The notes under the pieces were generated by a model, which saw only the letters and a program-made list of their open reading frames with translations, did no database searches and was not told where the DNA came from. Positions 26,940 through 63,110 of a DNA stretch of 64,000 nucleotides are shown here, piece by piece. Origin of the DNA: Polytrichum commune (Eukaryota > Streptophyta > Polytrichopsida > Polytrichales > Polytrichaceae); NCBI GenBank assembly GCA_950295325.1, contig OX485803.1, positions 71,129,554 to 71,193,553 on the forward strand, in the 5' to 3' direction. The position numbers were made by a program, and so were the translations under genes. The first letter of the stretch is position 1; each line of letters opens with the position of its first letter.

Positions 26940-28500
26940 AAGAAGTTAGAATCTAGGTCTCGGCCCCGAGATAGACTTTCAAAGGGTCACTGGGCGACAC
27001 CTATACATGCCGAGGGAGAAATTTCTGGTGAGGGGGAGGGATGACGGTCGAGGGAGAGGGGGAGGGTTTGGTGGCGTTCTTGGAGATTCGGCCAATGTAT
27101 GAGGTGAGGATAGTTAAGTGTGTTATGAGTGTAACCTGATATGAGGTGAGTTTGCAATGTTGGGTATAAGGGCAATCTGGATTTCTGAGATTCGAGGGCC
27201 GAGTTGAGTGTCTCGGTCCCGAGCCAGATTTTCTGGTATGCAAATCTCGGGATTTTTGGCAGAAGTGCAATATGATCTGAGGTCAATCTGGAATCTTAAG
27301 AATAAGGGTAACATGATGTAAGCTGGTATGTTTCTGCAATTTCAGGGCCGAGATGAGTGTCTCGGTCCTGAGACAGATTCGCTGGTATTCAAACTATACT
27401 GTCACAATCATAGTTGATTTTGATATCTAGATATGCTTTATACAAGTGTTATCTGATATGAGGTCATATATGTGGGTCTCAAGTGTATGATATGAGGATA
27501 TATATGTGGGTGTGAGGTGTAATCTGATATGAGGTTATATATGTGGGTCAGAAGTGTAATCTGGTTTCTGAAATTCCAGGGCCGAGATAAGCTTAGATAG
27601 TCAAATATAAGACCGAGTTGAGTGTCTCGGTCCCGAGCCAGATTTTCTGGTATGCAAATCTCGGGATTTTTGGCAGAAGTGCAATATGATCTGAGGTCAA
27701 TCTGGAATCTTAAGAATAAGGGTAACATGATGTAAGCTGGTATGTTTCTGCAATTTCAGGGCCGAGATGAGTGTCTCGGTCCCGAGACAGATTCGCTAGT
27801 ATTCAAACTATACTGTTACAATCATAGTTGATTTTGATATTTAGATATGCTTTATACGATTGTTATCTGATATAAGGTTATATATGTGGGTCTCTTATGT
27901 AATCTGATATGAGGATATATATGTGGGTGTGAAGTGTAATCTGATATGAGGTTATATATCATGTGGGTCACAAGTGTAATCTGATATAGGTTAAGTTAGG
28001 AATGTTGGGTAGTAGTGTAATCTGATCTAAGCTAAGAAAGTGAAATGTTATACAATCAGAGTTAGGGTAATGTGATATAATGTTAGATATTTCTGAAATT
28101 TCAGGGCCGAGATGAGTGTCTCGGTCCCGAGACGGTTTAGCTGGTATTCAAACTATACTGTCACAATCATAGTTGATTTTGATATCTAGATATGCTTTAT
28201 ACAAGTGTTATCTGATATGAGGTCATTTATGTGAGTCTCAAGTGTAATCTGATATGAGGTTATATATGTGGGTGTGAAGTGTAATCTGATATGAGGTTAT
28301 ATATGTGGGTATGAAGTGTAATATGATATGAGGTTATATATGTGGGTCTCTTGTGTAATCTGATATGAGGTTATATATGTGGGTCTCTTGTGTAATCTGA
28401 TATGAGGTTATATATGTGGGTCACAAGTGTAATCTGATATAGGTTAAGTTAGGAATGTTGGGTAGTAGTGTAATCTGATCTAAGCTAAGTAAATGAAATG
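26940..28500. repeat. Repeat array A (TCTCGG-N2-CCGAGA palindrome)
   Basis: Two kinds of repeat are mixed. One holds the inverted repeat TCTCGG-N2-CCGAGA (26958-26971, 27211, about 27360, about 27624, 27773-27787, 28119-28134). Its best copies extend to TGTCTCGG..CCGAGACA, usually preceded by GGGCCGAG. A block of about 170 bp around it is duplicated nearly exactly (27201-27373 and 27612-27782, 411 bp apart). The other is a unit of about 37 bp, GATATGAGGTTATATATGTGGGT followed by TAATCT, in at least eight copies (27450-27560, 27880-27990, 28210-28440). The array lies in what would be an intron of the L1 PM gene. Confidence 0.85.
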
Positions 28501-28550
28501 TAACACTATATTCGTTAATTGGAGACTTTTTGTTGATTTTGAGACTATTT
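28501..28550 (+). other. Boundary of unit L2 (shared with R)
   Basis: AACACTATATTCGTTAA followed by a GAGACTTTTTG / ATTTTGAGAC stretch, also found at 42032-42080 with a few differences. Upstream sequences differ completely. At 28500 the array-A unit ends in mid-repeat: its other copy at about 28047 reads GAAATGTTATAC where this one reads GAAATGTAACAC. This is a candidate element end. I could not find an inverted partner in the window. Confidence 0.5.
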
Positions 28551-28812
28551 AAGGACGTGGCTTTCACAATTGTAGGAAGGAAAACAGTACAAAGATGCTA
28601 TGTTCCCAATTTAGGATTCAGATATGAGACTCAAATGCATGGAAATACACAGACGTAAATAAGAAAACGAGATATATGAAAACATTTGCATATACAAAAT
28701 CGATATCATATTTATTGAGTAGGGTTGAAGTACAAAATACATGTGGAATATCCAATATTAAGCCAAAGTCCTAAAAATATAATCCCTCTACTAAATGTAT
28801 GTTAATAATAGC
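28551..28812. other. 3' flank of gene A (L2)
   Basis: AT-rich, non-coding, between the unit boundary and the stop of gene A. It probably holds the 3' UTR of gene A. Confidence 0.4.
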
Positions 28813-29718
28813 CTACATGTTTGGATTGTGAATACAACTCGCTACTTGTATTTTTGCCTTAGCCTTTGCGGCCGTTTCTTTTTCTTTTGCTTTAATGGCA
28901 TCCATTGCTCTAAAGATCTCGGCTCCGCGGCTGTAACCTTGTTTATTGACTGATCCCGAATATGTGCCATTTGCCCATATTTGCTGAACCGCTACCGATT
29001 TGTTGGTTGTAATATTGTGAGTGAAATAAGAATGCGTTTGGGAAACCGAATGTCTTGCACTCTTCCGTAGGGCCAAACAACGATCAGACTCGCAAGAAGC
29101 TGTCTTCAGTGTTCGCCTATCCAATGACGAAGTCGATGATGCCCGGCCCACATTCGTGTACATTGGGGTCTGAACAATGACCATAAATATATATAATGAA
29201 GTGGGTTAGTATAAGTGGTTACAAGTTACGGATGGAAGTCCGAAAAATCCAAGAAGTTGAAATGCACTAATACACGGAAATCATCAAGGAAAAACTTGAG
29301 AATGCCAATAGTTGGGCACCTTCGCCTTTGGGGCGCTGGTTAGAGCTTTTGGGACATCGACGGGTGTAGATACAAGCCCGAGAGGGACGTTCGCGAACGC
29401 CGGGACATCAATTTGGGGTTCATCCATGCAAAGGCGTCTGGTCGACCGTGGGTTACGGACGTGCTTCTCACTGCGGAGGGGAGATGGAGATGGACTTGGA
29501 GCGTAATTGAGTTTTGCAACCTTTGCAGGAGGGCTATCCACGACTCCGTCTTCAAACCCGGAGTCTTTGGAGTAATCAACAGCAGAGGCAGCATCGGCGG
29601 CCGAATATTGGAATAGTGAAGGCATTGCAACGTCGCTCATACCAAGGGAAGGGGAGCCGGTTTCTGCCTGAGATGCAGACATGCCATTGACGACACTTTT
29701 GGGTGCTTGGTGAGGCAA
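28813..29718 (-). CDS. Gene A, L2 copy (unknown, two exons visible)
   Basis: Exon n is about 29718-29307 (acceptor TCTTAG, donor AAG|GTGCCC). Exon n+1 is about 29180-28813 (acceptor GTTCAG). Both junctions are phase 0. The first exon has AAS-DYSK, GVVDSPPAK, a PSPSPSPL run and RRLCMD. The second has GYSRGAEIFRAMDAIKAKE and ends in an Ala/Lys-rich helix. The same order of motifs occurs in the copy at 42573-43392, so the gene is real although I recognise no family. There is no start codon at the exon head. The first Met, in NGMSASQAE, may serve, or an upstream exon is missing. The SP-rich, low-complexity make-up suggests a regulatory or nuclear protein. It lies downstream of the FCP1-like gene on the same strand. 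Confidence 0.6.
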
Positions 29719-29810
29719 CTAAGACACAAAAATACATTACAAAGATAAGGGGAGAAATGTTAGACATTTACATGGAGAGTCCAAGTACAAACCCAAAATC
29801 ATCAAAGTTT

Positions 29811-30530
29811 TCATATTAATTTATTGAGTCTAGCGTAGCCGTACAATCTCCTAAATTCCTCATCTTGTGGGCCTAGAGGCCTATTGCCAATTGGGTTGGA
29901 GAGCACAAAATCCGGGACACTTCCGGGGTGATAGGCAAGCCTCCTAATGTAGGGTCCTAGTTCACTCTCTAGAAAGTTGTCATTTCTATCGCTTTCCCAA
30001 GGATCCGGGAATATGCAATTGCCCGGGGGATTGAGAATACTCTTTGCCGGGCTGTCGTCAATGAGGAGTGTGTTATCCGGGGTGGGCCAACAACCGTGGG
30101 GAACCCCCTCCAACATAGGGACGCCCACCCAGAGGTTCTTCCTCAGGACCTTTAAGAATTGAGGCCCACGACCTCCTCCGACCTTGGGTACAATATTGCC
30201 ACTATGGTCATAGAGGTCATCGCAGTGTTCTTGACCGAAAAGCAAGCATGGCATTGCGAGTTCTCGGAAAAGGAAACCGACGATGGCCTTCGTGTTGTCC
30301 ATGAGCATAGAGCTCCAGATGATGACATGGGCGAAGCCAAGGACCTCACGAAGGAAGCTCCTCAAGCCGGGGCGGGCACGTACAACCTTCTTATTTATGA
30401 GAGTATCGAACTGTCCGCCGTAATCCATGTCTTGTGGACTACGGAAGGGCCCCTTGGACGCACTATGCGAGATATGATTGGAATGACAAAACACCCCATT
30501 GAGGTCAAATATTATGAACGGTTTCATCAT
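29811..30530 (-). CDS. FCP1/NIF-type HAD phosphatase-like protein
   Basis: A single-exon ORF of 239 residues. HAD motif I is FDLNGV at residues 8-13, where the second Asp of the usual DxD is Asn. Motif II is VIIWSSM (about residue 70), a Lys lies in the RKNLW region (about 130), and motif III/IV is TLLIDDSPAK (about 158). This layout is that of the FCP1 homology (NIF) domain, best known from phosphatases acting on the RNA polymerase II C-terminal domain. Plant genomes hold many relatives with a DLNG variant, so the Asn may be ancestral. If it removes the general acid, catalysis would be weak. An intact frame ends LNKLI with AATAAA overlapping the end. It lies between gene A and the PM gene of L2, all on the minus strand. 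R has no counterpart, so it may be cargo or a captured host gene. Confidence 0.75.
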   Translation of the reverse strand: MMKPFIIFDLNGVFCHSNHISHSASKGPFRSPQDMDYGGQFDTLINKKVVRARPGLRSFLREVLGFAHVIIWSSMLMDNTKAIVGFLFRELAMPCLLFGQEHCDDLYDHSGNIVPKVGGGRGPQFLKVLRKNLWVGVPMLEGVPHGCWPTPDNTLLIDDSPAKSILNPPGNCIFPDPWESDRNDNFLESELGPYIRRLAYHPGSVPDFVLSNPIGNRPLGPQDEEFRRLYGYARLNKLI

Positions 30531-30904
30531 GGGCGCGCTTGGTTTTCCCGCGGGGTTGCGACATATCTCCGACAGACCCTGTGATGGAACATTTTATCTA
30601 GGTAAATGGTACTACTCAAGAAAACCAATTGACAAGCATGGATAAACTCAACAAAGAATTATAAGGCCAAAAATAATCCGAACCATCCAGTTGAAAAATT
30701 GGTATTAATGTAATTGGTGATACACATTTGGTGAATAATATACATTGTCGCAAAAAATATCTGTTGAAGTTAATGGAATCTATGCTAACAAAATTGTATC
30801 CACCCGCAGGGCGAAGTCGAGGATTGAACTCGATAATATACACACGCCACGAAGGAGGCAGACAAGGAAGTTTCGGAGGCGCGTCCGTAACGTGGGAGGC
30901 ATGC
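30531..30904. other. Spacer between FCP1-like and PM genes
   Basis: About 370 bp with no supported gene. A half-palindrome of family B (GCGTCCGTAA) lies at 30881-30890. Confidence 0.4.
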
Positions 30905-33900
30905 TCAAAGGTTGATTACCTCTTCAGGGGCGAGGTCCGCTCCAGCAGTGCCTCCCTCACCTGGCCCCGTCATGGGCACAGGATCCGGACGCGCGCCCGC
31001 AAAATTGTCCAGATCTTCGACCACCAACAAGGTGTCTCCAGCCGCTTGCGACCCTTGAGTATCCACGTAAGGCTGATCCTCATCTGTGGAGTCTTGGCTG
31101 CCCCGCATATGTACATCTTCATCGCCGATGGGGGCATTGCCTTCATTGACATCTGTCTCGGCGGCACCCGCCATGTCACGTGCCGGTATCTCCTCCACTC
31201 CTGTAGGATGAGAGGAGGGCTCCTCTGGAGTGGCGACAACAAGGGGAGAGGGCGGGACAATCAACGTGGGAGCTGGATAAGCATGCTCGGGTATATAAAC
31301 TGCATGGCTACTAGATGGAGGCCGCATGAGAGTGGTGGGCATGGACATGCCAGCCTCGGGAGTTGCATATACAACTTGGGGCCTTGCCTGCAAGCTCTGC
31401 ATCAAGCTCATGAATTGTTGGCTCTGGGCCAAGAACTGTTGATTTTGAGCCATGAGATCAGCGTGCCTTCGAGCAGACTCCAACCTAGCTTGCTCCATCT
31501 CAGCTTGGATGGCGGCCATTTTTTTGGCATGCTCCTCGTTAGCTTCTCGAAGCCGTTGGTCAAGCTCTTCCTTCATTCGCCTCTCCATCTTCTCGTCCAA
31601 TTCGGACACTGACATCGGCTCTTTCTTCACCTTGCCAGGTTCCGTAGGCAAGGCAGAGATGGCATGTGAATCCTAATCTCATCCTCGTCTTCATCGGAGA
31701 GCTCCAAGACCGCGCCTTCAGGGTATTCGTTGTATGGCGTCTTGTTCCTCTTTCGTCGACTCTCACGATATAGAGAGATATCAGGCCTCAATATCAACTC
31801 CAGCACATCCCTCCCCTCCATAGGGGGTAGATCTGAATGTTGAGATCCCCCTCCAGATGAAGCGGTGCATCCGCCTTCTGCCGCAAGGTCCACATCCTTC
31901 TCGGCCATAACACTTGGAGCACGAGATGGACCCGCAGTTGAGGGAAATCCAACTCGAGAGGTGGGAGTCCCAAAAGGTGAGAGAACAGGGGTATGAGGGA
32001 CCCTTATCGGAGTGAAGTTCACGCGTGCCTCCTGCGCATCCGTGTCGTCTGTTCCTAGCAGGAAAGCACTTGGATTAATTGGGTCGCGAACAAGGCCGTG
32101 TAAAGGCTCCTGTGTGGAGGGCTGCGCTCTTGGGGAACTGGGATCTTGGTCCTCTTCAGGGTCTGACTCCATTCCGGGCATTGCCTCTTCTCTAGAAGAG
32201 AGAGGCACAATAGGATGGGGTGTAAGGACGTCCATGATGTCTTGGATATCCATTTTGGAGGCCATTACCCTGTGAGTATGGGCGTCATCGTAGTTGGAAT
32301 CCTGCACAAAAGAATTCACCTGCAAGCCAAGCATCTGGACCATAACAAGAAAATTAGATAAGAACAATTGTGGTGATTGCATATAAATGAGGCTAGATGT
32401 CAACACATTATACGGACGCACGTTCGTAAAACCACCACTCAAAAGTTGGACAATTTTACGGACGCACGGTCGTAAAATTCACATGCACCTGATACTGGGT
32501 TTTTACGGACGCGCGTCCGTAAAATAACTATGCAAAAGATTGGTGGGTTGAAAGACAAACAAATACTCACCAGTGCTGCATACATAAACTTCGTGCCTCC
32601 GAAGACGTTGTAAACTGTCTCACTCATGACAGTTAAAGCCTTCAAGACCCCTATATAAAAGTCCATCCGGAGCTCGAACGCCGGATAGATTGCATGCATT
32701 GTCTCCTCAACAAGCTCCTTGGGATGTGGTGGCGGCAACGAATAGACTTTCTTGAACACCTCGTGTGGTTTAATGGGCAATCGTCCAGTTGGGGAAGACT
32801 TGCGTGTTAAGAAATAAAGCTGCACAGCTCCCACTTGCTTCACCCCCCTTGCCTCTTGAATGACAATGATCCCTTCTGTCTTCGCTGGGATGTAGGTGCT
32901 GTGGTACATATCGTATTCGAGGTCCATCGTTGATGTGTACAGATGGACAATGGATGTGAACCTCTCTTGCTCTACAATCCATAACCACACATGAGGCTCG
33001 AAGAGGGCAGGCGAGCGATAGCTCTTGAATGCTTTTAAAAAGGGGTCGTAGAAGGGTGCTCCCGCAACGTCTTGCTTCCAAGCTCCGGGAATTGCACGAA
33101 AATCAAAAATGGCGAAAGGGCAACCCCTGGGATCATCTCTCACAGAGGCTCTTGAAGCATGGGTGTCCCATGTGCCGAACTTCATGCCCTTTGCGACCGT
33201 GCAGAATCTTGCAAACCCTCCAAATTTCGCGTTCTTTTTCCTATCGAGAAAGTGAACGTACAACCCTGCCTCCCTCTCGTCGATGGATCCCTTCTTTTCG
33301 TTCCTTCTGGATCGTTGGGCAAGGAAGGATGATGCCCCTCTTATCAAAGCTCGCATTGAGACGCCATTGATGTGGTATTCACCCTTCAGCTTCCTCCAAT
33401 TCTCCCACACGATCTCACCATCACTATTAATGAGGTTGTGGGTGGGTAGCAATTTGCTAATCTCCCTTACAGCCATGGTCTTCTTCTTTCTGTAATCGCA
33501 CCATTCCTTAATGTGGTACGTGGATGGCTTCATGTGCTTCGGCCGCTTCAGAAAGATTTTGGGATAGGGCAGAGTTCTTCTAGGAGTTTCTAGAAGAATG
33601 TGTTCTGCTGCCCTGTAGAGCTCCGAGTCCATCAATCCTTGGAGGGGACGAAAGAACTCTCGCAAGATTGGTGGTACCTTAATCTTTGAATCGCTCTTGT
33701 ACGTGTTCTCCGTATCTGGATTCACAAGGTCCCCGTTGTTGTGGGCATCGAAGAGTCGCAACCATATTGCCCACGTCTCCTCTGTTGCAGTGATGAGCTT
33801 GAGTTCACCCTTTAATTCATGCACTGTCTTCATGCCGCTTGTCTTCATGTCTATACTCGAGAACTTTGTCAAGATGACATTGCTGAATGTCTGCAAGAGG

Positions 33901-34662
33901 CATGAATTGCAAGAAATTAGTAGACATTAAATTCAAAGAATTGAAGCAGTGGGACAAGAAGGGGCAGGTTTACGGACGTGCGTCCGTAAATATATATGAG
34001 TGACATACCTGCCATTAGGGTTCTTGACGACTGCATTGTCTCTTTCTTTTGGGGGACATTCGTGCTCCACCCACAAGGTCCTCCCAGCCACGATGTTGGC
34101 TGCCCATGAAGCCTCGAACTGCCTCACTTTATTCCCCTGGTTCATGAAGGCAGATATTGCTATGAGCTGGTTCGAGTCCTTGGAATGCACGACGAATGCC
34201 TTCCAATATCGGATTGTCTCTTTCAATGGGCTTTTTCCACTCGTCGTCTTCAAGGAGAGCTTTTGCAGCCATTACACTATGTTGGCCGTCAACAATGTAG
34301 AACTCTCCATTCTTAAGAATCGGCCAATTTTTTTCGTTGACTTCAACGATAGGATCCTTTGGTGTGACACAAATGGTCTGCCTGTCAAATTTGGGGTTGT
34401 TCATGATGTTGTTCATTTGCCACCATACCCCGCTTTCTTCTTTTGCTCTGGTATTCATACTTTCGGTGCCCTTGTGGCATTTGTAGACGTCTACCTCGAA
34501 AGTAAAATACCTGCCAAGGGGCCAGCATCCCTTCGTCTTCTCATCGAACTCTTGGAATATTTTTGTTGAGAGTTCGGCGTCAGGGCGTTGACCATTTTTG
34601 AGGAGTGGAGCGACAGTCAGTGTAGAGCTGACATACGGACCCTCTGTTAGTCCAGAGTTCAT
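30905..34662 (-). pseudogene. PM gene, L2: ParB-like plus methylase fold
   Basis: The exons I can place are 34662-34009, 33882-32571 (acceptor ATTCAG, donor CTG|GTGAGT) and 32334-30905 (acceptor GTCCAG). The first holds a ParB-type motif, FYIVDGQHS (34276-34290). A 1-bp frame change follows between 34253 and about 34200. The next exon parallels the R copy in its middle and reaches the methylase fold. The DPPY position is weak (FDFRAIPG). The SAM-binding motif I is VYNVFGGTKF and continues across the intron as LGLQVNSFVQD, equivalent to LGRHVVALEED in R. The C-terminal tail is acidic, then coiled coil (about 31650-31400) and Pro-rich. A second frame change or unseen intron lies at 31627-31651. 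Both introns contain family-B palindromes. It is probably a DNA-binding, possibly catalytically weakened, methylase-like protein. Confidence 0.65.
32400..32524. repeat. Family-B palindromes in PM intron
   Basis: Three copies lie in the 236-nt intron 32570-32335: two imperfect (about 32408 and 32453) and one perfect 24-bp palindrome at 32501-32524, arm TTTTACGGACGC. A further copy with an imperfect centre lies at 33970-33990 in the neighbouring intron. Confidence 0.9.
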
Positions 34663-34713
34663 CTGCGAGTGAGAGCGTTTATTTGCCTGTCTGCTCCCTC
34701 TTTATGCACCACT

Positions 34714-35298
34714 CTACGAGGGCCTTGAGGATTCCGGCACTGGTTTAGGCACACGCTTGGGCCGTTCAGGAACGACTTGTTTTTTCTTATCTTTCCCCTT
34801 TCTGGCCTCTAGCAAGGCTCCATTTACTCTTGTTACATTGTTCAAGAGTCGTCCAAGCCGCTTACCCGTCCAAGGTGCATTACATGCATAGTCTTGGAAC
34901 TCCGTCTGGAGATTGAAGCAAGCCACATCTGTACTACCATTTTCACATTCATTTTTGTTGAATGGATGGTAAAATTTGTGCAAAATAAATGTTACTCGGT
35001 CTTCTTTCTTCTCAAGGTCTATTACTACATAGTCCCCTTGTGCCACTGCACACTCTACTATCCACGATTTAAGCTTTATCCACTTCTCAGCTTCATCTAT
35101 GTCTGTCTTCATTTGATATGCAAATCTAAGCACATATATTTCTTTCTCGTCCTTTTTTACCAGTACTGTCCAATTATCCACAATTTCATCTTGTGGCTTG
35201 TAATGGTCGTTGGGACTTATGTCTTTGATGGCTTCTGGTAGCGGAGGAATGAGAGCTTCTGCAAACATCTCAATTGCATGTCTCTTTTTAGATGCCAT
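34714..35298 (-). CDS. ORF upstream of ParB exon (possible PM 5' exon)
   Basis: MASKKRH start at 35298, directly after an acceptor-like TTTGCAG. The frame runs to a TAG at 34714-34716. It is about 194 residues: an acidic/hydrophobic middle and a basic, Pro-rich end (KKKQVVPERPKRVPKP). I recognise no domain. It may be the amino-terminal exon of the L2 PM gene. A GT at the end of the frame could pair with an AG inside the next ORF (near 34632) and keep the phase, giving an intron of about 85 nt, but the donor is poor. Otherwise it is a separate small gene. The R copy has a different, shorter region before its ParB domain. Confidence 0.5.
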   Translation of the reverse strand: MASKKRHAIEMFAEALIPPLPEAIKDISPNDHYKPQDEIVDNWTVLVKKDEKEIYVLRFAYQMKTDIDEAEKWIKLKSWIVECAVAQGDYVVIDLEKKEDRVTFILHKFYHPFNKNECENGSTDVACFNLQTEFQDYACNAPWTGKRLGRLLNNVTRVNGALLEARKGKDKKKQVVPERPKRVPKPVPESSRPS

Positions 35299-35351
35299 CT
35301 GCAAATGATAAGATAGATAAGTTAGAATTCTTGGCAAAAGATATAGATCAT

Positions 35352-36082
35352 ACTTTACGAACGCGCGTTCGTAAAGTTTTGCAAATTTTCTCAATTACAT
35401 TTTTTGATCCAAATGAAAAGATACATTTTTCCAAATACACATAACGCGTATATTATATACTCAAATATCTCTATAAGTTACAGACGCGCGTCCGTAAACT
35501 TCGCAAAGATAGTATGGTGTTATATATCTATGTATTCAAGTTACGGTTAATATTACTTCAAGAATGCACGAACGCGCTTCCGTAACCTCTGCACATATAT
35601 TATATATAGTTGATTCATAGGTCTTCCCAGTTTACGGACGCGCGTCCGTAAACTTTGGAAATATTTTAGATGGGAAATGTCTCTTCTATTTGCAAAATCT
35701 ATTGCATTTACGGACGTGCGTCCGTAAACTCTATACATATATTTTTTGAGAGTCTTGTTTCTCACGTACACAAAGATCCACAAAGTTTACGGACGCGCGT
35801 CCGTAAACTTTGAGTATTATAAAGGCTATTTAATAATGCCTAATATTACAATATTTGGCTTCGTTTGCGTAATATGTTGTTTGAGAGTCTTGTTTCTCAC
35901 CTATACAAAGATCCACAAAGTTTACGGACGCGCGTCCGTAAACTTTGAGGATTATAAAGGCTATTTTAATATGCCTAATATTATAATATTTGGCTTCGTT
36001 TGCGTAATATGTTGTTTGAGAGTCTTGTTTCTCACCTACACAAAGATCCACAAAGTTTACGGACGCGCGTCCGTAAACTTTG
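35352..36082. repeat. Array B1 of long perfect palindromes
   Basis: Seven or more copies of a palindrome whose arm is TTTACGGACGC. One at 35352-35377 is 26 bp, with paired changes in both arms (ACGAAC/GTTCGT). Another is at 35629-35654 (26 bp). A copy with an imperfect centre is at 35707-35728. Three copies of 32 bp, arm CAAAGTTTACGGACGC, are at 35781-35812, 35916-35947 and 36051-36082. The last three are part of a 135-bp tandem unit. Degenerate copies lie near 35478 and 35568. The array is upstream of the PM coding exons and probably in its leader or first introns. Confidence 0.95.
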
Positions 36083-36437
36083 AGGATTATAAAGGCTATT
36101 GTAATGTTTGCGTATTCTAATGTTTTCATTAATGCTCCGTGTTTTTCGGGACTTTACCTTGTCGTCCAATATGGTTTTGCCCTCCAAATAAGAATGCAAT
36201 CTTACTTCACTGCAATAGCAAACACTGCACTGCAGATTGACAACATAAGGCACTTTCAGAACACTGACATGTCCAAAACTAAATGATTCTTAGAATGTAG
36301 CCATAGACAAAGTACTAAACAAATTCAGAATTCCTTGAAACTGTAATCTCACATGCTCTCATGCTAACCTTAAGCCCTAAACCACAACAATCCAAAATTG
36401 CAATCATACAAAATGCAATTGCAATGTTCTAAAAAAC

Positions 36438-40690: not shown

Positions 40691-40693
40691 CGG

Positions 40694-41285
40694 AGGTTTA
40701 CGGACATGTGTCCGTAAACCTTAAACCTCTTGCTTGGTTGGATATCTATTGCTGTGAGAATTGTACTTGAGCTATTTCATGTACATTGAGGTTTACGGAC
40801 GCGCGTCCGTAAACCTTAAACCTCTTGCTTGATTGGATATGTATTGCTGTGAGAATTATACTTTAGCTATTTCATGTACATTGAGGTTTACGGACGCGCG
40901 TCCGTAAACCTTAAACCTCTTGCTTGATTGGATATCTATTGCTGTGAGAATTATACTTTAGCTATTTCATGTACATTGAGGTTTACGGACGCGCGTCCGT
41001 AAACCTTAAACCTCTTGCTTGATTGGATATCTATTGCTGTGAGAATTATACTTCAGCTATTTCATGTACATTGAGGTTTACGGACGCGCGTCCGTAAACC
41101 TTAAACCTTTTTGTTCCATTGTTCGGTATTGCACCTGAGCTGACATCATGACCACTTGCCATGTATAATATACCAACGAGACTGTATTGTCATGAAAATT
41201 TTCTGACTCACGTACAGTAACCTAAATCTATTTGTGCTAGTATTGAGGTCCAGAGAGGTTTACGGACGCGCGTCTGTAAACCCAC
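40694..41285. repeat. Array B2 of family-B palindromes
   Basis: Four 28-bp perfect palindromes with arm AGGTTTACGGACGC lie at 40789-40816, 40884-40911, 40979-41006 and 41074-41101, in a 95-bp tandem unit. A fifth at 40694-40721 has an imperfect centre (GACATGTGTC), and a copy near 41256 has one arm mutated. Weaker relatives continue to about 41790 (near 41570, 41650, 41770). The core is the same as in B1, but the outer flanks differ (AGG/CCT instead of CAAAG/CTTTG) while staying complementary. Confidence 0.95.
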
Positions 41286-49232: not shown

Positions 49233-49689
49233 GTATGCTCTGCTTACATTACATTTAGTTTGAATTTATTTAAATTTTATGAGTCCCGTGTATAGTTGGC
49301 TTGAAAGGAAACATTATGGCATGAGAGGAAACTATCCTATGCATTCGAGTAATGATATTTTCGATGCTTTGTCGCATCATTGCAAGTTTGGCACTAGACA
49401 TTGTTAATATATATGCACTAGAAATTAGGGGTAGTAATCGTGAGGTAAACAAGGCAGCAAGTGTGGCCCTGTGGAAGCACTCACAATGCAAAGGGTGGTC
49501 ACAATGACTCGGAAGAGGAAGGGAACAAGACTGACGCAACAGTAACATACCATCGTTCCCCGCATTACAACAAACCTCAGAAATAGGGTATTCCTCCAAA
49601 TACGAGGAGTGAACACAGAGTTCAAGGTTGCAGCCTCAATTTGGAAAGGGGGAGGGATTCGAGGGGAGGGCAGTGGTCGCCCCGTGGAG

Positions 49690-52600: not shown

Positions 52601-55600
52601 GAATGTGGGTAACTGAGTAGGGGCTGACTTTGATGTGGCCTTAGTTAGGTTTTGAATGAGGCTGAAAGTGTTGATTTTGTGGCTAAATGAGGAGGTTATT
52701 CACTTTGATGTGGCCTTAGTTAGGTCTTGAATGAGGCTCAAATTGTTGCTTTTGTGGCTAACTGAGTAAGTTATTCACTGAGATATGGCTTTAGTTAGGT
52801 CTTGAATGAGGTCTGAGATGTTGATTTTGTGGCTCACTGAGTAAGGGCTGACTTTGATGTGGCTTAGTTAGGTCTTTAATGAGGCTCAAAGTGTTGATTT
52901 TGTGGCTAATTGAGGAAGGGGGCTGACTGAAATGAGCCATTAGTTCGTACTTAGGGGTTCAAATTTCTGGCCATGTGGTTGAGGGGTGCATGTTTGGGAG
53001 GTCACAGGTTAGGCCTAGAGGGCATTGTCGGATCCGACAAAGCATCCAGGACCTAGTTGAGAACCTCTAAATACTTAGAAATTTGGCTATATGAAATAGT
53101 GGGTTGACTTAGATGTGGCCTTAGTTAGTTATTGAATGAGGTGGGAGATGTTGATTTTGTGATAACTGAGTAAGGGGTTGACTTAGATGTGGCTTAGTTA
53201 GGTCTTTAATGAGGCTCAAAGTGTTCATTTTCATGCTAACTGAGTAAGGGGCAAGACTGAAATGTGGCCTTAGTTAGTTCCTAGGGATTCAGATTTCTGG
53301 CCAAATGGTTGAGGGGTGGTTGTTTGTGAGGTCTCAGGTTAGGCCTTAAGGGCATTGTCAGATCCGACAAGACCAAGTTGAGAACCTCTGAAAACTTGGA
53401 AATTTGGCTTACTGTGGCCTTGAATGAGGTCTGAAAATTTGATTTTGTGGCTAACTCCATAAGTGAATTGACTTAAATGTGGCCTTAGTTAGGTCTTTAT
53501 AATCGAAATTTCTGGCCATATGGTTGAGGGGTGCATGTTTGTGAGGTCTCAGGTAAAGCCTATAGGGCATTGTCGGATCCGACAAAGCATCCAAGACCAA
53601 GTTGAGAACCTCTAAATACTTAGAAATTTAGCTTAGTGTGGCCTTGAATGAGGTCCGAAAAATTGATTCTGTGGCTAACTCCATAAGCGAGTTGACTTAA
53701 ATGTGGGCTTGGTTAGGTACTAAGTATTCAAATTTCTGGCCATATGGTTGAGGGTGCTTGTTTGTGAGGTCTCAGGTATGGCCTAAAGGGCATTGTCGGA
53801 TCCGACAAAGCATCCAAAACCAAATTGAGAACCTCTAAAAAGTTAAAGATTTGGCTATATGAACTAAGGGGTTGACTTAAATGTAGCCTTAGTGTGGCCA
53901 TTAATGAGGTCTGAATGTTGATTTTGTGGCTAACTGAGTAAGGGCTGAGTTTAATGTGGTCTTAGTTAGGTCTTTATAATCCAAATATCTGGCCATATTG
54001 TTGAGGGTTGCATGTTTGTGAGGTCTCAGGTTACGCCTAATGGGCATTGTCGGATCCGACAATGCCTCTAAGACCAAGTTAAGAACCTCTAATGTAGCTT
54101 TAGTATGGCCATTAATGAGGTCTGAAATTGTTGAATTTTTGGCTCACTGAGCATGGGGCTGACTTTGATTTGGCCTTGCTTAGTTCGTAGGGATTCAAAT
54201 TTCTGGCCAACTGGTTGAGGGGTGGTTGTTTGTGAGGTCTCAGGTTAGGCATTAAGGGCATTGTCGGATCCGACAAAGCATCCAAGACCAAGTTGAGAAC
54301 CTCTAAAAACTTGGAAAGTTGGCTTAGTGTGGCCTTGAATGAGGTCTGAAAAATTCATTTTGTGGCTAACTCCACAAGTGAATTGACTTAAATGTGGCCT
54401 TAGTTAGGTCTTTATAATCGAAATTTCTGGCCATATGGTTGAGGGGTGCATGTTTGTGAGGTCTCAGGTAAGGCCTATAGGGCATTGTCGGATCCGACAA
54501 AGCATCCAAGACCAAGTTGAGAACCTCTGAAAACTTGGAAATTTGGCTATATGAACTAGGGGGTTGACTTAAATGTAGCCTTAGTGTGTCAATTACTTAG
54601 GTCTAAAATTTTGATTTTGTGGCTAATTGAGTAAGGGGGCTGACTTTAATGTGGCCTTAGTTAGGTCTTTATAATCCAAATTTCTGGCCATATAGTTGAG
54701 GGGTGGTTGTTTGTGAGGTCTCAGGTTACGCCTAATGGGCATTGTCGGATCCGACAATGCATCCAAGACCAAGTTGAGAACCTCTAAAAACTTGGAAAGT
54801 TGGCTTAGTGTGGCCTTGAATGAGGTCTGAAAAATTCATTTTGTGGCTAACTCCACAAGTGAATTGACTTAAATGTGGCCTTAGTTAGGTCTTTATAATC
54901 GAAATTTCTGGCCATATGGTTGAGGGGTGCATGTTTGTGAGGTCTCAGGTAAGGCCTATAGGGCATTGTCGGATCCGACAAAGCATCCAAGACCAAGTTG
55001 AGAACCTCTGAAAACTTGGAAATTTGGCTATATGAACTAGGGGGTTGACTTAAATGTAGCCTTAGTGTGTCAATTACTTAGGTCTAAAATTTTGATTTTG
55101 TGGCTAATTGAGTAAGGGGGCCGACTTTAATGTGGCCTTAGTTAGGTCTTTATAATCCAAATTTCTGGCCATATAGTTGAGGGGTGGTTGTTTGTGAGGT
55201 CTCAGGTTAGGCCTTAAGGGCATTGTCGGATCCGACAAAGCATCCAAGACCAAGTTGAGAACCTCTGAAAACTTGGAAATTTGGCTATATGAACTAGGGG
55301 GTTGACTTAAATGTAGCCTTAGTGTGTCCATTACTTAGGTCTGAAATGTTGATTTTGTGGTTACCTGATTAAGGGGGCTAACTAAAATGTGGCCTTAGTT
55401 ATGTACTAAGTATTTAAATTTTTGGCCATATGGTTGAGGGGTGCATGTCTGTGCGGTCTGATGTTAGGCCTAAAGGGCATTGTCGGATCCGACAATGCAT
55501 CCAAGACCAAGTTGAGAACCTCTAAAAACTTAGAAAGTTGGCTATATGAACTAGTTGGTTGACTGAAATGTGGCCTTAATGTGGCATTCAATTATGCTCA

Positions 55601-56700
55601 AAATATTGATTTTGTGGCTAACTGAGTAAGGAACTGAGTTTTATGTGACCTTGGTTATGTCTTTCATGAGGCTCAAAGTTTTAATTTTGTGGCTAACTGA
55701 GTAAGGGGCAGCCTGAAATGTGGCAGTAGTTAGTTCTTGGGAATCCAAATTTCTGGCCATATGGTTGAGGGGTGGTTGTTTGTGAGGTCTCAGGTTATGC
55801 CTTAAGGGCATTGTCGGATTCGACAAAGCATCCAAGACCAAGTTGAGAACCTCTAAAAACTTAGAAAGTTGGCTTAGTGTGGCCTTGAATGAGGTCTGAA
55901 TATTTGATTTTGTGGCTAACTCCATAAGTGAATTGACTTTAATGTGGCCTTAGTTAGGTCTTTATAATCCAAATTTCTGGCCATATAGTTGAGGGGTGGT
56001 TGTTTGTGAGGTCTCAGGTTACGCCTAATGGGCATTGTCGGATCCGACAATGCATCCAAGACCAAGTTGAGAACCTCTGAAAACTTGGAAAGTTGGCTAT
56101 ATGAACTAGGGGGTTGACTTAAATGTAGCCTTAGTGTGTCAATTACTTAGGTCTGAAATGTTGATTTTGTGGCTAATTGAGTAAGGGGGCTGACTTTAAT
56201 GTGGCCTTAGTTAGGTCTTTATAATCCAAATTTCTGGCCCTATAGTTGATGGGTGCATTTTTGTGAGGTCTCGGGTTACGCCTAATGGGCATTGTCGGAT
56301 CCGACAAAGCATCCAAGACCAATTTGAGAACCTCTTAAAACTTAGAAATTTGGCTATATGAACTAGGGGGCGTCTGAGATGAGGCATTAGTGTGTCCTAA
56401 GTGAGGCTCAAAATGTTGAGTTCGTGGCTAATTTTATAAGTGGGCTCACTGAAATGTGGGCATAGTTAGGTACTAACTATTCAAATTTCTGGCCATATGG
56501 TGTAGTTGTCCATGTTTGTTTGGTCTTAGGTTAGGCTTTAAAGGCTATGTCAGATCCGACATTGCCTCTAAAACAGCTTTAAGAACTTCTAAAAGCGTAT
56601 AATTCTGGCTATCTGAACTAGGGGGTTGACTGTACTGTGGCGTGAATGAGGTTTGATTTTTTTTAGGGTTTTGGGGGGTTGATTGTAATGTGGCCTTAGT
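49690..56700. repeat. Satellite C1 (TGTCGGATCCGACA palindrome)
   Basis: About 7 kb of tandem and higher-order repeats. Each basic unit holds TGGCCATATGGTTGAGGGG, a GGTCTCAGGTTAGGCC stretch, then GGGCATTGTCGGATCCGACAAAGCATCC and AGTTGAGAACCTC, then filler units of about 60-80 bp (GTGGCCTTAGTTAGGTCTTGAATGAGG, TGATTTTGTGGCTAACTGAGTAAGG). I count about 21 exact GTCGGATCCGAC sites here, spaced roughly 220-480 bp, plus mutated copies at 53359, 55816 and 56551. Left-hand units form a larger repeat of 1.1-1.3 kb (for example 50140, 51270, 52560). The flanks extend symmetry to GC[A/T]TTG...CAAAGC. All of it lies in the proposed first long intron of PM. Confidence 0.95.
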
Positions 56701-58681
56701 TGGGTTCATTTGAATGCTCCTCATTTTTTCAATAAATTGGTTGTGCGCAGATCGTTGAGATGGATGCTGATCGTGAGTCTGTGGATGTTGGGGGTCGTAT
56801 TGGCGCTGGGTCATCCCTTAGTGTTGAGGAGCATAGGGAGCAAGGGTCTCCCTTGTCATGTGATCAAAATACTGGGCTTACACCAGGTAGTAGCAAGGCG
56901 CCGACACCCGGGATGCCACTCTGCGGCTCACCTGCAGATTCGGATTTGGGTGTTCGTGCAATGGAATATCGAATTCGCCACAATTTAAAGAAAGATAGCT
57001 TTTTAGTTGTTGAGGGCATGAGAATCCTACCGGTAGAAAAGTCCTCCATGAGAATCCCCCTGTGCAGGTTGATTCACATGCCATTGGTTCGCCCAACCTT
57101 CCGCAGTGACGTTACAAAGCTCATGTCGGCATTTCAATTTGGATACCGAGCTGGGTCAGCCACTTTTTATGTATCTACTACAAATGAGTCCGGAGATAAT
57201 CGATTCATTTCAGCGAAAGATAGGCGTGAATGGGGAGACCTATGGAATGCAGAAAATGATAAGTTTGAGTCTCTTTTGCGCAAAGATAAGGACTTGATGA
57301 GCCTCAGTGGATGTATGTTCTTTGTGTATGATGGTAACCATCGCTTGTTAGCCTGGAAGGAGTGTATTGAAACAGATCACAAGGACGATGCACTCTGGTA
57401 CGAGAAGCATGGTTGCCCAGAATGTGTCATCTTGGACACAACGGGTGGGCGTGGGGACGTCCTTAACGCAATGCACGACATCAATAAGTAAATATGATAA
57501 TTTTTCATATCGTTGTTTCCTTCATTTTTTGATTTGCATTTAATGACATTTGTCTCTACCGCAACAGGGCTAACCAGACTGCGCACGTTAAGACTAGCCT
57601 CGTACACACTCTACACTGCATTCAAAAATACGGTTCGTATGATCTTAGCTACTACCAGCCCTTATTGACCGAGGAGCAATTCCAAGCGTGCAAGAGCAGA
57701 GGCCCCAAGAGCCCTTGGTACCCGCTGACCCAGGATCTTATGGTGTCCTTCATTTTCAATGTAAGTCACTCCAAATTTCTCAACCCTCTACTTCGCATTC
57801 ATTACTCTTAGTCGTGATCTAACAATTTAGAATATATGTTCAGCAAGAGATAGCCGATGCGGTAGATGAGGCTACCCAAATATACAAGGAGGAAGTGTCT
57901 CCAGAGGAGCAGTCGGGGAACGGGTTGGGTGAAGTATTGGACGCTGTGATAAAGAAGACGACTGAGGAACTTGGACACAAGTTCAACAAGCAACAATCAA
58001 TCGCAAACCCGGCCCTTGGAAAAGACTTTCTGGAAGAGGTTATTTCCTTCTCACCAACCTTCGGAATTATACCTTCGGTATTGCTCGCATTCATTTCAGC
58101 ACTTTCTCGTAAATTCATGATTAAATTTACTCCGCCTTCTTTTTTTATGACATTTGTTTCAGGTTACTAGGCATTATAGCGCCCACCATTCTAAGAAGAT
58201 TGAGATGACATTGGAGAAATTGCAACTCATTGCCACAGCTGCTGTGGAGCCAGAGTATAAAGTCCGTTGGCTAAAGTGATGGAACAGTGGAAATTTCAAT
58301 CGTGAAGCTATCCGGTTCCCCAAAAGTCCTGCAAGCGAGGACACCTTGAAACCTTGGCTCAATAAAACAACGTTCTGGGCAGGGGTACGTCTATCCTCCT
58401 TATCCTTACTTACCAATCAACTCTTCATTCTATGCCGATTCTTATCTTGGCCTTGAATTTATCCACAGCTTGAGGATGCAGTGGTCAAGGAGTTACCTGA
58501 TATACTTCACGCATTGGGTGGGCTTGACGGAGATGTCGAAGTTGATTCATTGCCGGACTACTTGGAGAAGTGGCGGATCTGCCTTTGGGATAAGGCGTTC
58601 ATAGGTCACTTTTCAGGTTCAGATATCTACGGAAAGGGGACGTGGTGGAAGGATGTCAAAGGCTCTGACAACATTGTCAAG

Positions 58682-58706
58682 CGCTTAATTTTTCGGTACG
58701 TTAGTT
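58682..58706 (+). repeat. Exon-end duplicate flanking satellite C2
   Basis: The end of the exon and its splice donor (CGCTTAATTTTTCGGTACG...) recur as a degenerate copy at about 61118-61142, 23 of 26 bases the same, just before the next exon. The satellite block C2 lies between them. Confidence 0.75.
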
Positions 58707-58749
58707 GAGACATCATTTGTTCTCCTCATTTATTTAAAACCATTTAATC

Positions 58750-61110
58750 TATCCCTTTTAGAGCTCGTCGTGAGCTAGTTGGGTACTAAGTATACAAATT
58801 TTTGTCCATATGGTTGAGGGGTGCATGTTTGTGAGGTCTCAGGTTGGGCCTAAAGGGCATTGTCGGATCTGATAAACCATCCGAGACCAACTTCAGAACC
58901 TATAAAAACTTGGAAATTTAGCTATATGAATTAGTGGATTGACTTAAATGTAGCCTTAGTGTGGCCATTAATGAGGTCTGCAATTTTGATTTTGTGGCTA
59001 ACTGAGTAAGGGGCAGCCTCAAATGTGGCAGTAGTTAGTTCTTGGGAATCCAAAATTCTTGCCATATTGTTCAGGGGTGCATGTTTGTGAGGTCTCCGGA
59101 TGGGCCTAAAGGGCATTGTCGGATCCGACAATGCATCCAAGACCAAGTTGAGAACCTCTAAAAAACTTAGAAAGTTGGCTATATTAACTAGTTGGTTGAC
59201 TGAAATGTGGCCTTAATGTGGCATTCAATTATGCTCAAAATATTGATTTTGTGGCTAACTGAGTAAGGAACTGAGTTTTATGTGACCTTGGTTATGTCTT
59301 TCATGAGGCTCAAAGTTTTAATTTTGTGGCTAACTGAGTAAGGGGCAGCCTGAAATGTGGCAGTAGTTAGTTCTTGGGAATCCAAATTTCTGGCCATATT
59401 GTTGAGGGGTGCATGTTTGTGAGTTCTCAGGTTGGGCCTAAAGGGCATTGTCAGATCCGACAAAGCATCCGCGACCAACTTCACAACCTTTAATAACTTC
59501 GAAATTTGTCAATATGAACTAGTGGGTTGACTGAAATGTGGCCTTAATGTGGCCTTCAGTAACGGTCTAATTGTTGATTTTGTGGCTAACTGTGTAAGGG
59601 GCTGACTGAAATGTTGCCTTAGTTAGTTCTTGAATTAGGCTCACAGTGTTGTTTTCTGGCTATCTGAGTTAGGGGCTGACTTTGATGTGGCCTTGGTTAG
59701 GTCTTTAATGATGCTCAAAGTTTTGATTTTGTGGCTAACTGAGTAAGGGGCAGCCTGAAATGTGGCCTTAGTTAGGTTTTGAATGAGGCTGAAATTGTTG
59801 ATTTTGTGGCTAAATGAGGAGGTTATTCACTGAGATGTGGCCTTAGTTAGGTCTTGAATGAGGCTCAAATTGTTGCTTTTGTGGCTAACTGAGTAAGTTA
59901 TTCACTGAGATATGGCTTTAGTTAGGTCTTGAATGAGGTCTGAGATGTTGATTTTGTGGCTCACTGAGTAAGGGCTGACTTTGATGTGGCTTAGTTAGGT
60001 CTTTAATGAGGCTCAAAGTGTTGATTTTGTGGCTAATTGAGTAAGGGGGTTGACTTTAATGTGGCCTTAGTTAGGTCTTTATAATCCAAATTTCTGGCCA
60101 TATGGTTGAGGGGTGGATGTTTGTGAGGTCTCAGGTTAGGCCTAAAGGGCATTGTCGGATCCGACAAAGCATCCAAGACCAAGTTGAGAACCTCTAAAAA
60201 CTTAGAAAGTTGGCTTAGTGTGGCCTTGAATGAGGTCTGAAAATTTGATTTTGTGGCTAACTCCATAAGTGAGTTGACTTATATGTGGGCTAAGTTAGGT
60301 CCTAAGTATTCAAATTTCTGGCCACATGGTTGAGGGGTGCATGTTTGTGAGGTCTCAGGTAAGGCCTAAAGGGCATTGTCGGATCCGATACAGCATCCGA
60401 GACCAACTTCAGAACCTTTAGAAACTTAGAAATTTGGCTATATTAACTAGTGGGTTGACTGAAATGTGGCCTTATTTGGTTCTTGAATTAGGCTCACAAT
60501 GTTGATTTTGTGGCTATCTGTGTTAGTGGTTGTCTGAAATGTGGCCTTAGTTAGGCCTTCAATTATGCTCCAAGTGTTGATTCTGTGGCTAACTAAGTAA
60601 GGTGCTGACTTTAATGTTGCTTTAGTTAGTTCTTGAATTAGGCTCACAGTGTTGATTTTGTGGCTATCTGAATAAGGGGCTGACTGAAATGTGGCCTTAG
60701 TTAGGTCTTCTATGAGGCTCAAAGTTTTGATTTTGTGTCTACCTGAGTAAGGGGCAGACTGAAATGAGGCATTAATTAGTTCTTAGGGATTCAAATTTCT
60801 GGCCATATGGTTGAGGGGTGCATGTTTGTGAGGTCTCAGGTTGGGCCTACAGGGCATTGTAAGATCCGATAAACCATCTGAGACCAACTTCAGAACCTAT
60901 AAAAACTTAGAAATTTGGCTATATTAACTAGTGTGTTGACTGAAATGCGGCCTTCATGTGGCCTTTAGGTAGGGTCAAATTGTTGATTTTGTGGCTTACT
61001 GAGTAACGGGGCAGAATGAAATGTGGCTTACTTAAGTACTAAGTATTTAAATTTCTGGCCATATCATTTAGAGGTCCTAGTTTGCGAGGTCTGAGTGAGG
61101 TGTGAGGAAG
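58750..61110. repeat. Satellite C2 inside PM intron
   Basis: About 2.4 kb of the same satellite as C1, more diverged. Exact GTCGGATCCGAC lies near 59116 and 60152; mutated copies lie near 58864, 59451, 60378 and 60862. The filler units TGGCTAACTGAGTAAGGGGC and GTGGCCTTAGTTAGGTC dominate. It sits in one intron (58696-61184) of the R PM gene. Confidence 0.92.
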
Positions 61111-62449
61111 TCTCAATCGCTTAATCTTTCGATACGTTAGTTCTTTTATAAGTTGTTGATTGGCCTCACTCCTTGGTTGTGAAGGTACATCAAGCACGAG
61201 CTTTTCAAGAAGAAGGCTTTGAAGAAGCTCCCTCCATTTCTAGACGCATGGTCAGATTCCTCTTCACCCACCTTCGTTTTTTCCCCGGCTCAAAAACGCA
61301 ACTTTTCCCTCCCGCATCTCCGCGAGTGTTGCTGGTACTTGGAATGTAAGAAGACGTGGCAACCGGATGAGGAGGCGGACTTGAAGATTCGCCTCTCCGG
61401 TGGAGAGCCGAACCTGCCTCCTGCTCAAAGCGATGAGGTTGTTCTTCTAGAGAGTGAGCTTCAGGAGGTGGATGAGGTTGTTGCGACTCTCGATGAGCCC
61501 AACACTCAGAAGTCCAAGAGGAGGAAGCGTGCGACTCAAGACGAGTCATCACTCAAGAAGCGCGCGAGGAAGCTCAAGCCTGTGGAGGATGATCCCCCTC
61601 CCCCTGCTTCACTTGAGGCGGCAGTTGCATCCACTGCAACTCTAAGTGAATTACCTACTCTATCCAGGCCGCCTCCTCCGCCCATTCTTTCATCTGTTAG
61701 GCGTCCTCCCGTTGTTTCAGAATTCATGTTGAATTCCTCCATTGTTCATCAACGTCGTCATTTTCATGAGATTTCAAACTTCATTCTTTCTCTTCCACCC
61801 TCCCATCCCAAGAGAGCTCTAGGTGTTGCGAGGTCAGATGTGGGCATGGCTGATCTTGTCATTGCCGACATCCCGGAGAACCTGCCTGTACCTAATGTCT
61901 CCCATCCTTCCTATAGTGTACCTTCGTGGAATGCATTGGAAGCGATTTTCTAGGTGAGCTCTTTGATTTTGCGGATGAGATCCTGCATGACGATGGAGCT
62001 CTCCTCCTCTTTCATCCTGATGACAATGGTGACTTTAGGGAGAGCATTGAAGACCACTTTGCTGCTTTTGGGTTCACGATCTTCAAGGAGTGGCTGGGAG
62101 TCAACCGTCTTCGCCTATCTTCAGCTAAGCATAAGGACAAGACCACCAACCTCTTCCAAGTTGTACTACTTGTTCGTGCCACCAAAACAATTGGATCCGA
62201 CCTTGATAAGCGGCCGCGGCACTCGTCATTTCGGCTTCGCGATGCCAATGAGCTCAAGGCTCTTGGCATTGAGCTCGACATGGATGATGCGATCATGAAT
62301 TATACCGCAACTCCTCTCATGGACGGCTCCAAAGCTTGGCGTGGTCCCCGTGAGAAAGATATTGCTTTCATGTCCTCCTTGATAATGGCCACTACGGACA
62401 TTGGACAGGTTGTGGTGGACGTTAATGCGGGCGTTGGTATGTCCTAATT

Positions 62450-63110
62450 CCTAGTTGAGAACCTCTAAAAACTTAGAAATTTGGCTATATGAACTAGTTG
62501 GTTGACTTAAATCTGGCCTTAGATGTTAGAGGTCTGAAATGTTGAATTTGTGGCTCACTAAGTAAGGGGCTGACTCTGATGTGGCTTAGTTAGGTCTTTA
62601 ATGAGGCTCAAATTGTTGATTTTGTGGCTAACTAAGTAAGGGGCTGACTGAAATGTGGCCTTACTTGGTTCTTGAATTAGGCTCACAGTGTTGATTTTGT
62701 GGCTATCTGTGTTAGGGGCTGACTGAAATGTGGCCTTAGTTAGGCCTTCAATTAGGTTCAAAATGTTGATTTTGTGGCTAACAGAGTAAGGGGCTGACTG
62801 GAATATGGCTTAGTTAGGTCTTTAATGAGGCTCAAATTGTTGATTTTGTGGGTAACTGAGTAAGGGGGCTGTCTGAAATGTGGCCTTAGTTAGGCCTTGA
62901 ATGAGGTCTGATGGGTTGATTTTGTGGGTAACTGAGTAAGGGGGCTGACTTACATGTGGCTTAGTTAGGTCTTGAATTAGGCTCAAAGTGTTGATTTTGT
63001 GGCTAACTGAGTAAGGGGGCTGTCTGAAATGTGGCCTTAGTTAGGCCTTGAATGAGGTATGAAATGTTGATTTTGTGGGTAATTGAGTAAGGGGGCTGAC
63101 TGAAATGTGG
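62450..63110. repeat. Satellite C3 inside PM intron, no palindrome
   Basis: About 0.65 kb of C-family filler units (GGCTGACTGAAATGTGGCC, GTTGATTTTGTGGCTAACTGAG) without the GTCGGATCCGAC core. It fills the intron 62437-63125 that splits methylase motif I. Confidence 0.9.

Follow-up and report, generated by a model that had tools for sequence, protein, structure and literature searches.

Analysis of a 64,000-nucleotide stretch of Polytrichum commune DNA (contig OX485803.1, positions 71,129,554 to 71,193,553; hereafter the window), combined with genome-wide searches of the 408-Mb, 64-contig assembly, revealed that genes joining a ParB-like to a methyltransferase-like part (PM genes) are paired with short repeated palindromes, that palindrome type is concordant with PM clade, that the sites possess sharp borders in the superclade of the window unit L2, and that the association extends beyond the window. 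The fact that many transposons in this genome carry a PM gene together with a palindrome seen mostly in close relatives suggests recognition and control of own copies. PM genes would, in the explanation that we favour, be transposon accessory genes whose protein, probably as a dimer, binds inverted half-sites in the introns and upstream DNA of its own element and thereby exerts a selective effect on its own family's copies, changing their chromatin; based on the sequences this explanation is reasonably probable, while the narrower proposition that PM binds its palindrome is considerably more so.

Palindromes in the window and across the genome

Three PM units, designated L1, L2 and R, are present in the window, where perfect palindromes were listed independently of an earlier note on the same DNA. 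That note had assigned to each PM gene its own palindrome family within its introns; the families do not mix between the units of the window, and the restriction to introns proved too strict, with L2 sites also lying 5–6 kb upstream and two sites of the D clade (see below) lying inside an open coding frame. The palindromes and the associated satellite are located as follows.

26958 to 28133: L1 palindromes TCTCGG-N2-CCGAGA, 3' of the third small PM exon; three exact sites (26958, 27774 and 28119), degenerate copies between them, and nine sites at up to two mismatches
32501 to 32524: L2 palindrome (TTTACGGACG-N2-CGTCCGTAAA) in the intron 3' of the methyltransferase-like exon
33969 to 33990: L2 palindrome in the intron that separates the ParB-like exon from the methyltransferase-like one
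35352 to 36082: L2 palindromes 5' of the start codon (35352, 35629, 35707, 35781, 35916 and 36051)
40694 to 41101: L2 palindromes in a 95-bp tandem array, five copies
49802 to 56307: R palindromes TGTCGGATCCGACA, 21 exact, in the satellite-filled intron 1
59113 to 60167: R palindromes in intron 6, two exact (59113 and 60152) with degenerate copies
62446 to 63114: 75-bp satellite in R intron 7, palindrome-free

Exact R sites (TGTCGG-N2-CCGACA) number 23, with 21 in intron 1, two in intron 6 and none in intron 7. Of the three satellite blocks to which the R palindrome had been ascribed, those of introns 1 and 6 stand and the third has to be struck, as the intron 7 satellite holds no R site even when three mismatches are allowed. 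A cross matrix of the window units gave zero in every off-diagonal cell save for one TACGAACG variant inside L2, and with that exception the claim that no family occurs in the introns of another unit holds.

Dinucleotide shuffles (50 per unit) yielded no 6-nucleotide arm pair occurring twice: 19 of 20 real PM units hold one family in 3–16 copies, against at most one in the shuffles. The unit missing a repeated family is c14.03, whose fetched PM starts only at R residue 147. Two copies of any arm pair were the most observed in 13 control windows of 5 kb. Twelve of these windows are without an R- or L2-like match, and the remaining one contains a diverged methyltransferase fragment of PM-like kind (28% identity).

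Genome-wide, 658 exact sites of the R palindrome and 1147 of the L2 palindrome were found, the reversed-sequence controls giving none for either. The proximity of sites to genes was checked for these two families using 50 sites of each among the matches listed, all on contig C1, and 150 scored exons out of 957 (L2) and 150 out of 1112 (R) first-look candidates. Among these listed sites, 45 of 50 (R) lie within 10 kb of a scored R-type ParB exon and 47 of 50 (L2) within 10 kb of a scored L2-type exon, a territory (150 scored exons and 10 kb on either side) amounting to less than 1% of the genome. The other five listed R sites (14.070–14.078 Mb) fall in a fragment with R-type non-coding DNA and without a strong R exon, and three listed L2 sites (25.983 Mb) are not near a scored L2-type exon. 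Palindromes equally frequent away from PM genes, an outcome that would have spoken against the pairing, were therefore not encountered: for these two families (listed sites) and in 30 fetched units, the motif is repeated in its own non-coding DNA and rare elsewhere.

Palindrome type and PM clade

Nineteen further PM loci were picked solely on protein identity, palindromes being ignored, and 16 of these possess a palindromic arm pair repeated at least three times, two have imperfect palindromes and one has half-sites only. Among relatives of L2, loci L025–L029 (60–96% identical to L2) carry TTTACGGACG-N2-CGTCCGTAAA, L030 and L031 (47–48% to L2) carry TTTACGAACG-N2-CGTTCGTAAA, and D (to the right of the window) and D2 (32.0 Mb), whose ParB exon is 32–36% identical to L2-clade members, have TTTGGGTCG-N2-CGACCCAAA in common; unit E (14.02 Mb), with an NIF exon 60% identical to that of L2, has the GAACG type. 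On the R side, L032 (56% to R) carries TGGTCGG-N2-CCGACCA, L033 TGTTTCGG-N2-CCGAAACA, L035 CTCTCGG-N2-CCGAGAG and L043 GGGTTCGG-N2-CCGAACCC, while TGTCTCGG-N2-CCGAGACA of L034 recurs in L039, L040 and L041 and is the type that the L1 palindrome fits. Throughout the R superclade the inner TCGG-N2-CCGA is kept and the outer bases vary.

In a cross matrix of 30 units, with types defined from these same units, 237 exact sites were of the expected type and three of another, all three of the next-nearest type; a tenth (tail) type, with six sites in two R-type units, was left out of these figures, and L037, L038 and L042 contribute no exact site. Mantel tests of palindrome type against PM clade, for which half-sites were typed by hand with ambiguity letters and partly by judgement, gave r 0.58 (p 5e-5; 14 of 19 units) in the R superclade and r 0.83 (p 0.0016; 9 of 11 units) in the L2 superclade, so that PM clades devoid of any link to palindrome type, the second outcome that would have counted against the pairing, were likewise not observed. 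Excluded were, in the R superclade, L036 (broken exon), L042 (no palindrome), c20.2b (inverted near-duplicate), c28.6 (stop in the exon) and L1 (no ParB exon) and, in the L2 superclade, L029 and E (no full exon). A protein tree of 15 R-superclade rows pairs L033 with L037 (97/96), L035 with L042 (100/99) and L038 with L043 (91/85), beside which L034 and L039–L041 are not separated further; L032 sits on a long branch, its placement being unsure.

Site borders were profiled in the L2, GAACG and D clades (70, 30 and 62 sites), where the half-site ends sharply at 10 nucleotides: its columns hold 0.6–2.0 bits (the search seed did not include the four outermost bases) and the flanks 0.0–0.6 bits save for one L2 column of 1.0. 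In a first profile, sites with similar flanks were collapsed, a procedure that necessarily depresses flank values; repetition with far flanks and without collapsing returned the same border in the L2 superclade.

Bases beyond the core are often palindromic too, with differing sequences (L026 at 1865, L027 at 3953 and L028 at 1486), and reach 56 bp of perfect palindrome in L026. Such outer flanks suggest template switching that perfects palindromes.

Evidence beyond linkage

Sites of one element, whether upstream or in different introns, share the same clade-specific bases. The R palindrome is unchanged beside transposases that are 78–95% (c20.2) and only 44–58% (c28.6 and c32.0) identical to that of R, and the ParB exons remain 83–84% identical where the transposases are just 44–58% identical. 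In R intron 1, 42 of the 84 CpGs fall inside palindrome sites, which span 294 of 7518 bp; the CpG share of palindromes is also large in L041 (14/17), L033 (18/33), L035 (28/54) and upstream of D2 (42/119), and lower in L030 (18/70), upstream of L2 (44/169), in L1 (6/30), in R intron 6 (4/25) and in L032 (14/140).

D and D2 have two palindromes within an open coding frame, where they encode the peptide FGSxDPN:

L023, 511 and 580: coding-frame palindromes
L017, 3125 and 3056, minus strand: coding-frame palindromes

Every specified base of these coding sites is kept, third codon positions included, in an exon stretch that is otherwise 73% identical, and the central N2 varies and alters the amino acid. 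Recognition is favoured over linkage because of the L2-superclade borders, the bases shared across introns and upstream DNA, the constancy of the R palindrome, the CpG share and the coding sites taken together.

PM proteins

PM agrees with the N6/N4 DNA methyltransferases by family match or fold: the R piece running from after the frame break through exons 8–9 matched PF01555 (N6_N4_Mtase; 4.2e-7, 30.6 bits, cut-off 26.7), and the ten best PDB matches to a low-confidence model of the L025 methyltransferase-like exon are all adenine methyltransferases (MTA1, CcrM and others). The catalytic motif of N6/N4 DNA methyltransferases is (D/N/S)PP(Y/F/W), the DPPY type. By eye it is absent from both superclades, R types reading DIPEN or DLPEN and the L2 superclade having a DFRxxPG stretch at this point; marking by N-methylation is weakened by this absence, the catalytic motif looks degenerate, and the methyltransferase part may bind S-adenosylmethionine or DNA without catalysis.

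A DGxHR-like motif is present as DGNHR in the R superclade (EGNHR in L035) and DGQHS in the L2 superclade, and the ParB-like naming, which draws on the DGxH motif and two weak PHROG matches, is tentative. The L2 PM combines ParB-like, methyltransferase-like and CTD-phosphatase-like (NIF) exons. The usual motif of CTD-phosphatases is DxDx; the domains seen here read DLNG in all four copies (window 29811–30593, L023 1331–2173, L024 6343–7125 and L017 1458–2300) and are possibly inactive. A protein search with R (885 amino acids, the stop and the frame break being entered as X) scored 7993 candidates, of which none reached E<=0.001.

At L024 (192–986, minus strand) a DUF7869 protein (PF25273, 1.3e-36) is divergent from an L2-type PM gene and is perhaps the transposase of that element; no long DUF7869-like open reading frame (ORF) is listed at 37.3–42.5 kb of the window.

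Units of the window

The genes of the three units are given below, the positions being those of the window.

23345 to 25780, minus strand: L1 transposase fragment of the Mutator-like element (MULE) kind, divergent from the L1 PM gene
26157 to 26435, plus strand: exon 1 of the L1 PM gene (MNTRSRARADREG...), sharing 53% identity over 88 amino acids with R exon 1
28813 to 35310, minus strand: L2 PM gene, broken copy, exon limits not fixed
34714 to 35310 and 34129 to 34701, minus strand: L2 PM ParB-like ORFs
32439 to 33926, minus strand: L2 PM methyltransferase-like ORF, the next ORF being 31627 to 32478
29811 to 30593, minus strand: L2 PM CTD-phosphatase-like (NIF) ORF (PF03031, 5e-13)
Down to 28813, minus strand: L2 PM C-terminal ORFs
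44681 to 48644, minus strand: R MULE-like transposase, several ORFs, with a weak SWIM zinc finger (PF04434, 0.0034, below cut-off)
48954 to 63710, plus strand: R PM gene, broken copy, nine inferred exons
48954 to 49232, 56751 to 57487, 57568 to 57760, 57844 to 58077 and 58163 to 58384, plus strand: R PM exons 1–5
58469 to 58695, 61185 to 62436, 63126 to 63333 and 63431 to 63710, plus strand: R PM exons 6–9

Units L1 and R share a layout in which a MULE-like transposase on the minus strand faces away from a PM gene on the plus strand, and their transposases are 95% identical in DNA (23298–25764 against 46151–48619); the MULE assignment is tentative (SWIM match below cut-off, catalytic domain and terminal repeats not established), and a Pfam scan of the L1 fragment alone gave no match. 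The ParB exon of L1 is missing from the window; this unit is placed only by its palindrome, and R is the only relative of its first exons among the fetched DNA. Exons 1–7 of R have GT..AG splice boundaries, and the last two exons were assigned by hand reading; exon 5 is interrupted by a single in-frame stop and exon 7 by a single frame break. The window copies of R and L2 are both broken (stop, frame breaks), and ParB exons are stop-free in many relatives.

Terminal inverted repeats and target duplications were looked for and none were established. Direct repeats ACACTATATTCGTTAA at 28503 and 42035, which mark the ends of L2 and an L2-type remnant (42.0–43.5 kb) on the 3' side of PM, have no inverted partner in the window. 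Elsewhere, positions 691–3530 and 7204–10043 are inverted 2.84-kb copies (99.9% identity) of a repeat with a third, partial copy to the right of the window (98.6–98.7%), indicating a young repeat, and a small plus-strand open frame (43875–44444, 189 amino acids; best Pfam 0.025, not significant) lies between the L2 remnant and the R transposase.

Discussion

The likeliest purpose of PM would be anti-silencing or self-regulation of the element, comparable to the role of VANC for VANDAL transposons, and protein and site would diverge jointly until related families cease to recognise each other. We infer that PM, rather than another protein of the element, is the binder, that it would bind as a dimer and that the outcome would be anti-silencing, which by analogy is the somewhat likelier result if PM does bind. 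The claim of the earlier note that each PM recognises its own palindrome is borne out as far as clade-by-clade co-variation, the L2-superclade borders and the persistence of palindromes with PM when the transposase differs are concerned, binding itself being a prediction.

Several observations weigh against this explanation. Part of the concordance arises by descent, and concordance by itself would not prove recognition because introns are linked to their own gene; the Mantel tests also ignore tree kinship. In the R clade 70 sites reduce to seven distinct contexts, mostly tandem arrays with flanks of up to 1.5 bits, and no site border is demonstrable there owing to these shared flanks. The palindromes of L037 and L038 are imperfect, L036 (L032 type, three outer arm pairs) has a single fully perfect site, and L042 has 16 half-sites and no palindrome of its sister's type; it also holds an unrelated TTCAAAT-N2-ATTTGAA within its own 75-bp satellite. 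A second palindrome family, GGCCTCGG-N2-CCGAGGCC, with sites about 138 bp apart, lies 3' of the PM stop codon in some R-type copies, with no exact site in window R:

L016, 1640 to 2059: tail sites, four
L023, 6630 to 7047: tail sites, four
c28.6 (stitched), 26025 and 26163: tail sites
c14.06: tail sites, two

On the protein side, exon 7 of L023 (R type) and the methyltransferase exons of L025 and L030 submitted alone gave no Pfam match, and the best PDB match of the L025 model (L2 type) had E 0.008, none reaching E <= 0.001. Pfam scans of PM found no ParB match. The best PHROG, phrog_1033 (ParB-like partition protein), matches R at E 0.19 and L025 at E 0.017, at motif level only, and is not the best PHROG for L020, L030, L033 or L035. 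The R ParB exon model has a mean pLDDT (per-residue confidence) of 48 with no useful PDB match, PDB sequence searches with A3 and A1 returned nothing convincing (best E 0.62 and 0.23), and hhalign aligns the two superclades with each other at the DGxH motif alone, the probability being negligible.

Among alternatives, it is unlikely, though least so of those considered, that PM is a self-repressor or copy-number control limiting its own family instead of an anti-silencer. Bacterial repressors typically autoregulate through palindromic operators in their own gene and upstream region, which the PM palindromes resemble, and the sign of the effect is not fixed by the present data; the number of intron sites, however, exceeds the needs of a promoter operator, and VANC, the closest tested analogue with tandem motifs in its own element, is an anti-silencer (PMC5735166; PMC10398659).

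That the palindromes are instead sites of the co-encoded transposase, serving excision, regulation or immunity while PM rides along, is improbable. Sites far upstream of PM (L2, 40.7 kb), or in L024 between the DUF7869 ORF and PM, would suit such a role, as would the separate family in the 3' tails of certain R-type copies; yet sites cluster within PM introns, PM accompanies two unlike kinds of transposase (MULE-like and DUF7869), and the same R palindrome stands beside the close (c20.2) and the distant (c28.6, c32.0) transposases while PM stays similar.

It is quite improbable that the palindromes are passengers, that is, tandem satellites which arose by slippage, were perfected by template switching and were inherited with the gene. 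Linkage alone would yield clade concordance, many sites, nearly all of the R clade, do lie in tandem arrays, and the differing palindromic flanks of up to 56 bp are what quasi-palindrome correction predicts. Passengers would not account for cores kept between unrelated flanks in the L2 superclade, CpGs persisting in the cores of CpG-poor introns, wobble bases kept in coding sites, or 3–16 copies in 19 of 20 units against at most one in shuffles and two in the 13 control windows. That the palindromes act at the RNA level, forming hairpins in transcribed introns with a part in splicing or small RNAs, is very improbable. Perfect arms reach 28 bp and would fold in a transcript; against this, sites are also found several kb 5' of the ParB exon (L2 at 40.7 kb), arms of the R type frequently span only 7 bp, and certain clades have a fixed centre that does not pair.

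As for known systems, bacterial ParB has a DGxHR-type motif and binds palindromic parS sites near its own gene. PM shares both the motif and the proximity of palindromic sites, and differs in having no significant ParB domain match and many divergent site types per genome as opposed to one conserved type. The available sections of PMC12477816 describe Sola1-1_Ec32 of Ectocarpus, a 21.5-kb DNA transposon encoding a 1104-amino-acid accessory protein with ParB-like and N4C/N6A methyltransferase domains; its authors suggest that the protein binds and epigenetically modifies its own transposon, and they cite examples from green and red algae (PMC12477816). ParB-methyltransferase accessory genes of algal transposons are thus already published, their role guessed and, in those sections, their targets not given. 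The two-domain kind of protein and its strand, opposite to the transposase, are the same; here, by contrast, it accompanies MULE-like and DUF7869 ORFs in many copies within one genome (957 and 1112 first-look candidates), with a degenerate-looking catalytic motif, a CTD-phosphatase-like domain added in the L2 superclade, and clade-specific palindromes, of which those sections make no mention. A search of one literature library, judged by titles and abstract openings, found nothing on palindromes paired with ParB-methyltransferase accessory proteins.

VANC of VANDAL elements binds its motif and removes methylation. The motifs are family-specific, lie upstream of VANA as well as within the VANB and VANC introns, and evolve by tandem repeats (PMC5735166; PMC10398659). 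Common to both systems are a transposon-encoded protein and short tandem motifs in introns and upstream DNA, family-specific and evolving with the protein. The differences are that the VANC motif YAGTATTAY is non-palindromic, that VANC has DUF1985/DUF287 domains (PMC5735166), neither of which appeared in Pfam scans of the submitted PM pieces, and that VANC function has been shown experimentally (PMC5735166; PMC10398659), whereas that of PM is predicted from sequence. The parallel is close and would be one of function, not of family.

The evidence is evenly balanced as to whether PM genes form a diversified system of transposon self-recognition, in which at least nine half-site types are tied to PM clades, a catalytically altered methyltransferase scaffold with a ParB-like module is combined with unlike transposases, and own copies are addressed genome-wide; as part of that joint reading, and with the same even weight, the fixed inner TCGG-N2-CCGA and variable outer bases of the R superclade would resemble a readable recognition code. 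The likely targets can here be read from the sequence, and a single genome offers many natural protein-site pairs, whereby specificity, its evolution and the epigenetic effect become directly testable. If the proposed explanation is true, PM would represent a second system that functions as VANC does on a different architecture, and might supply new sequence-specific DNA binders.

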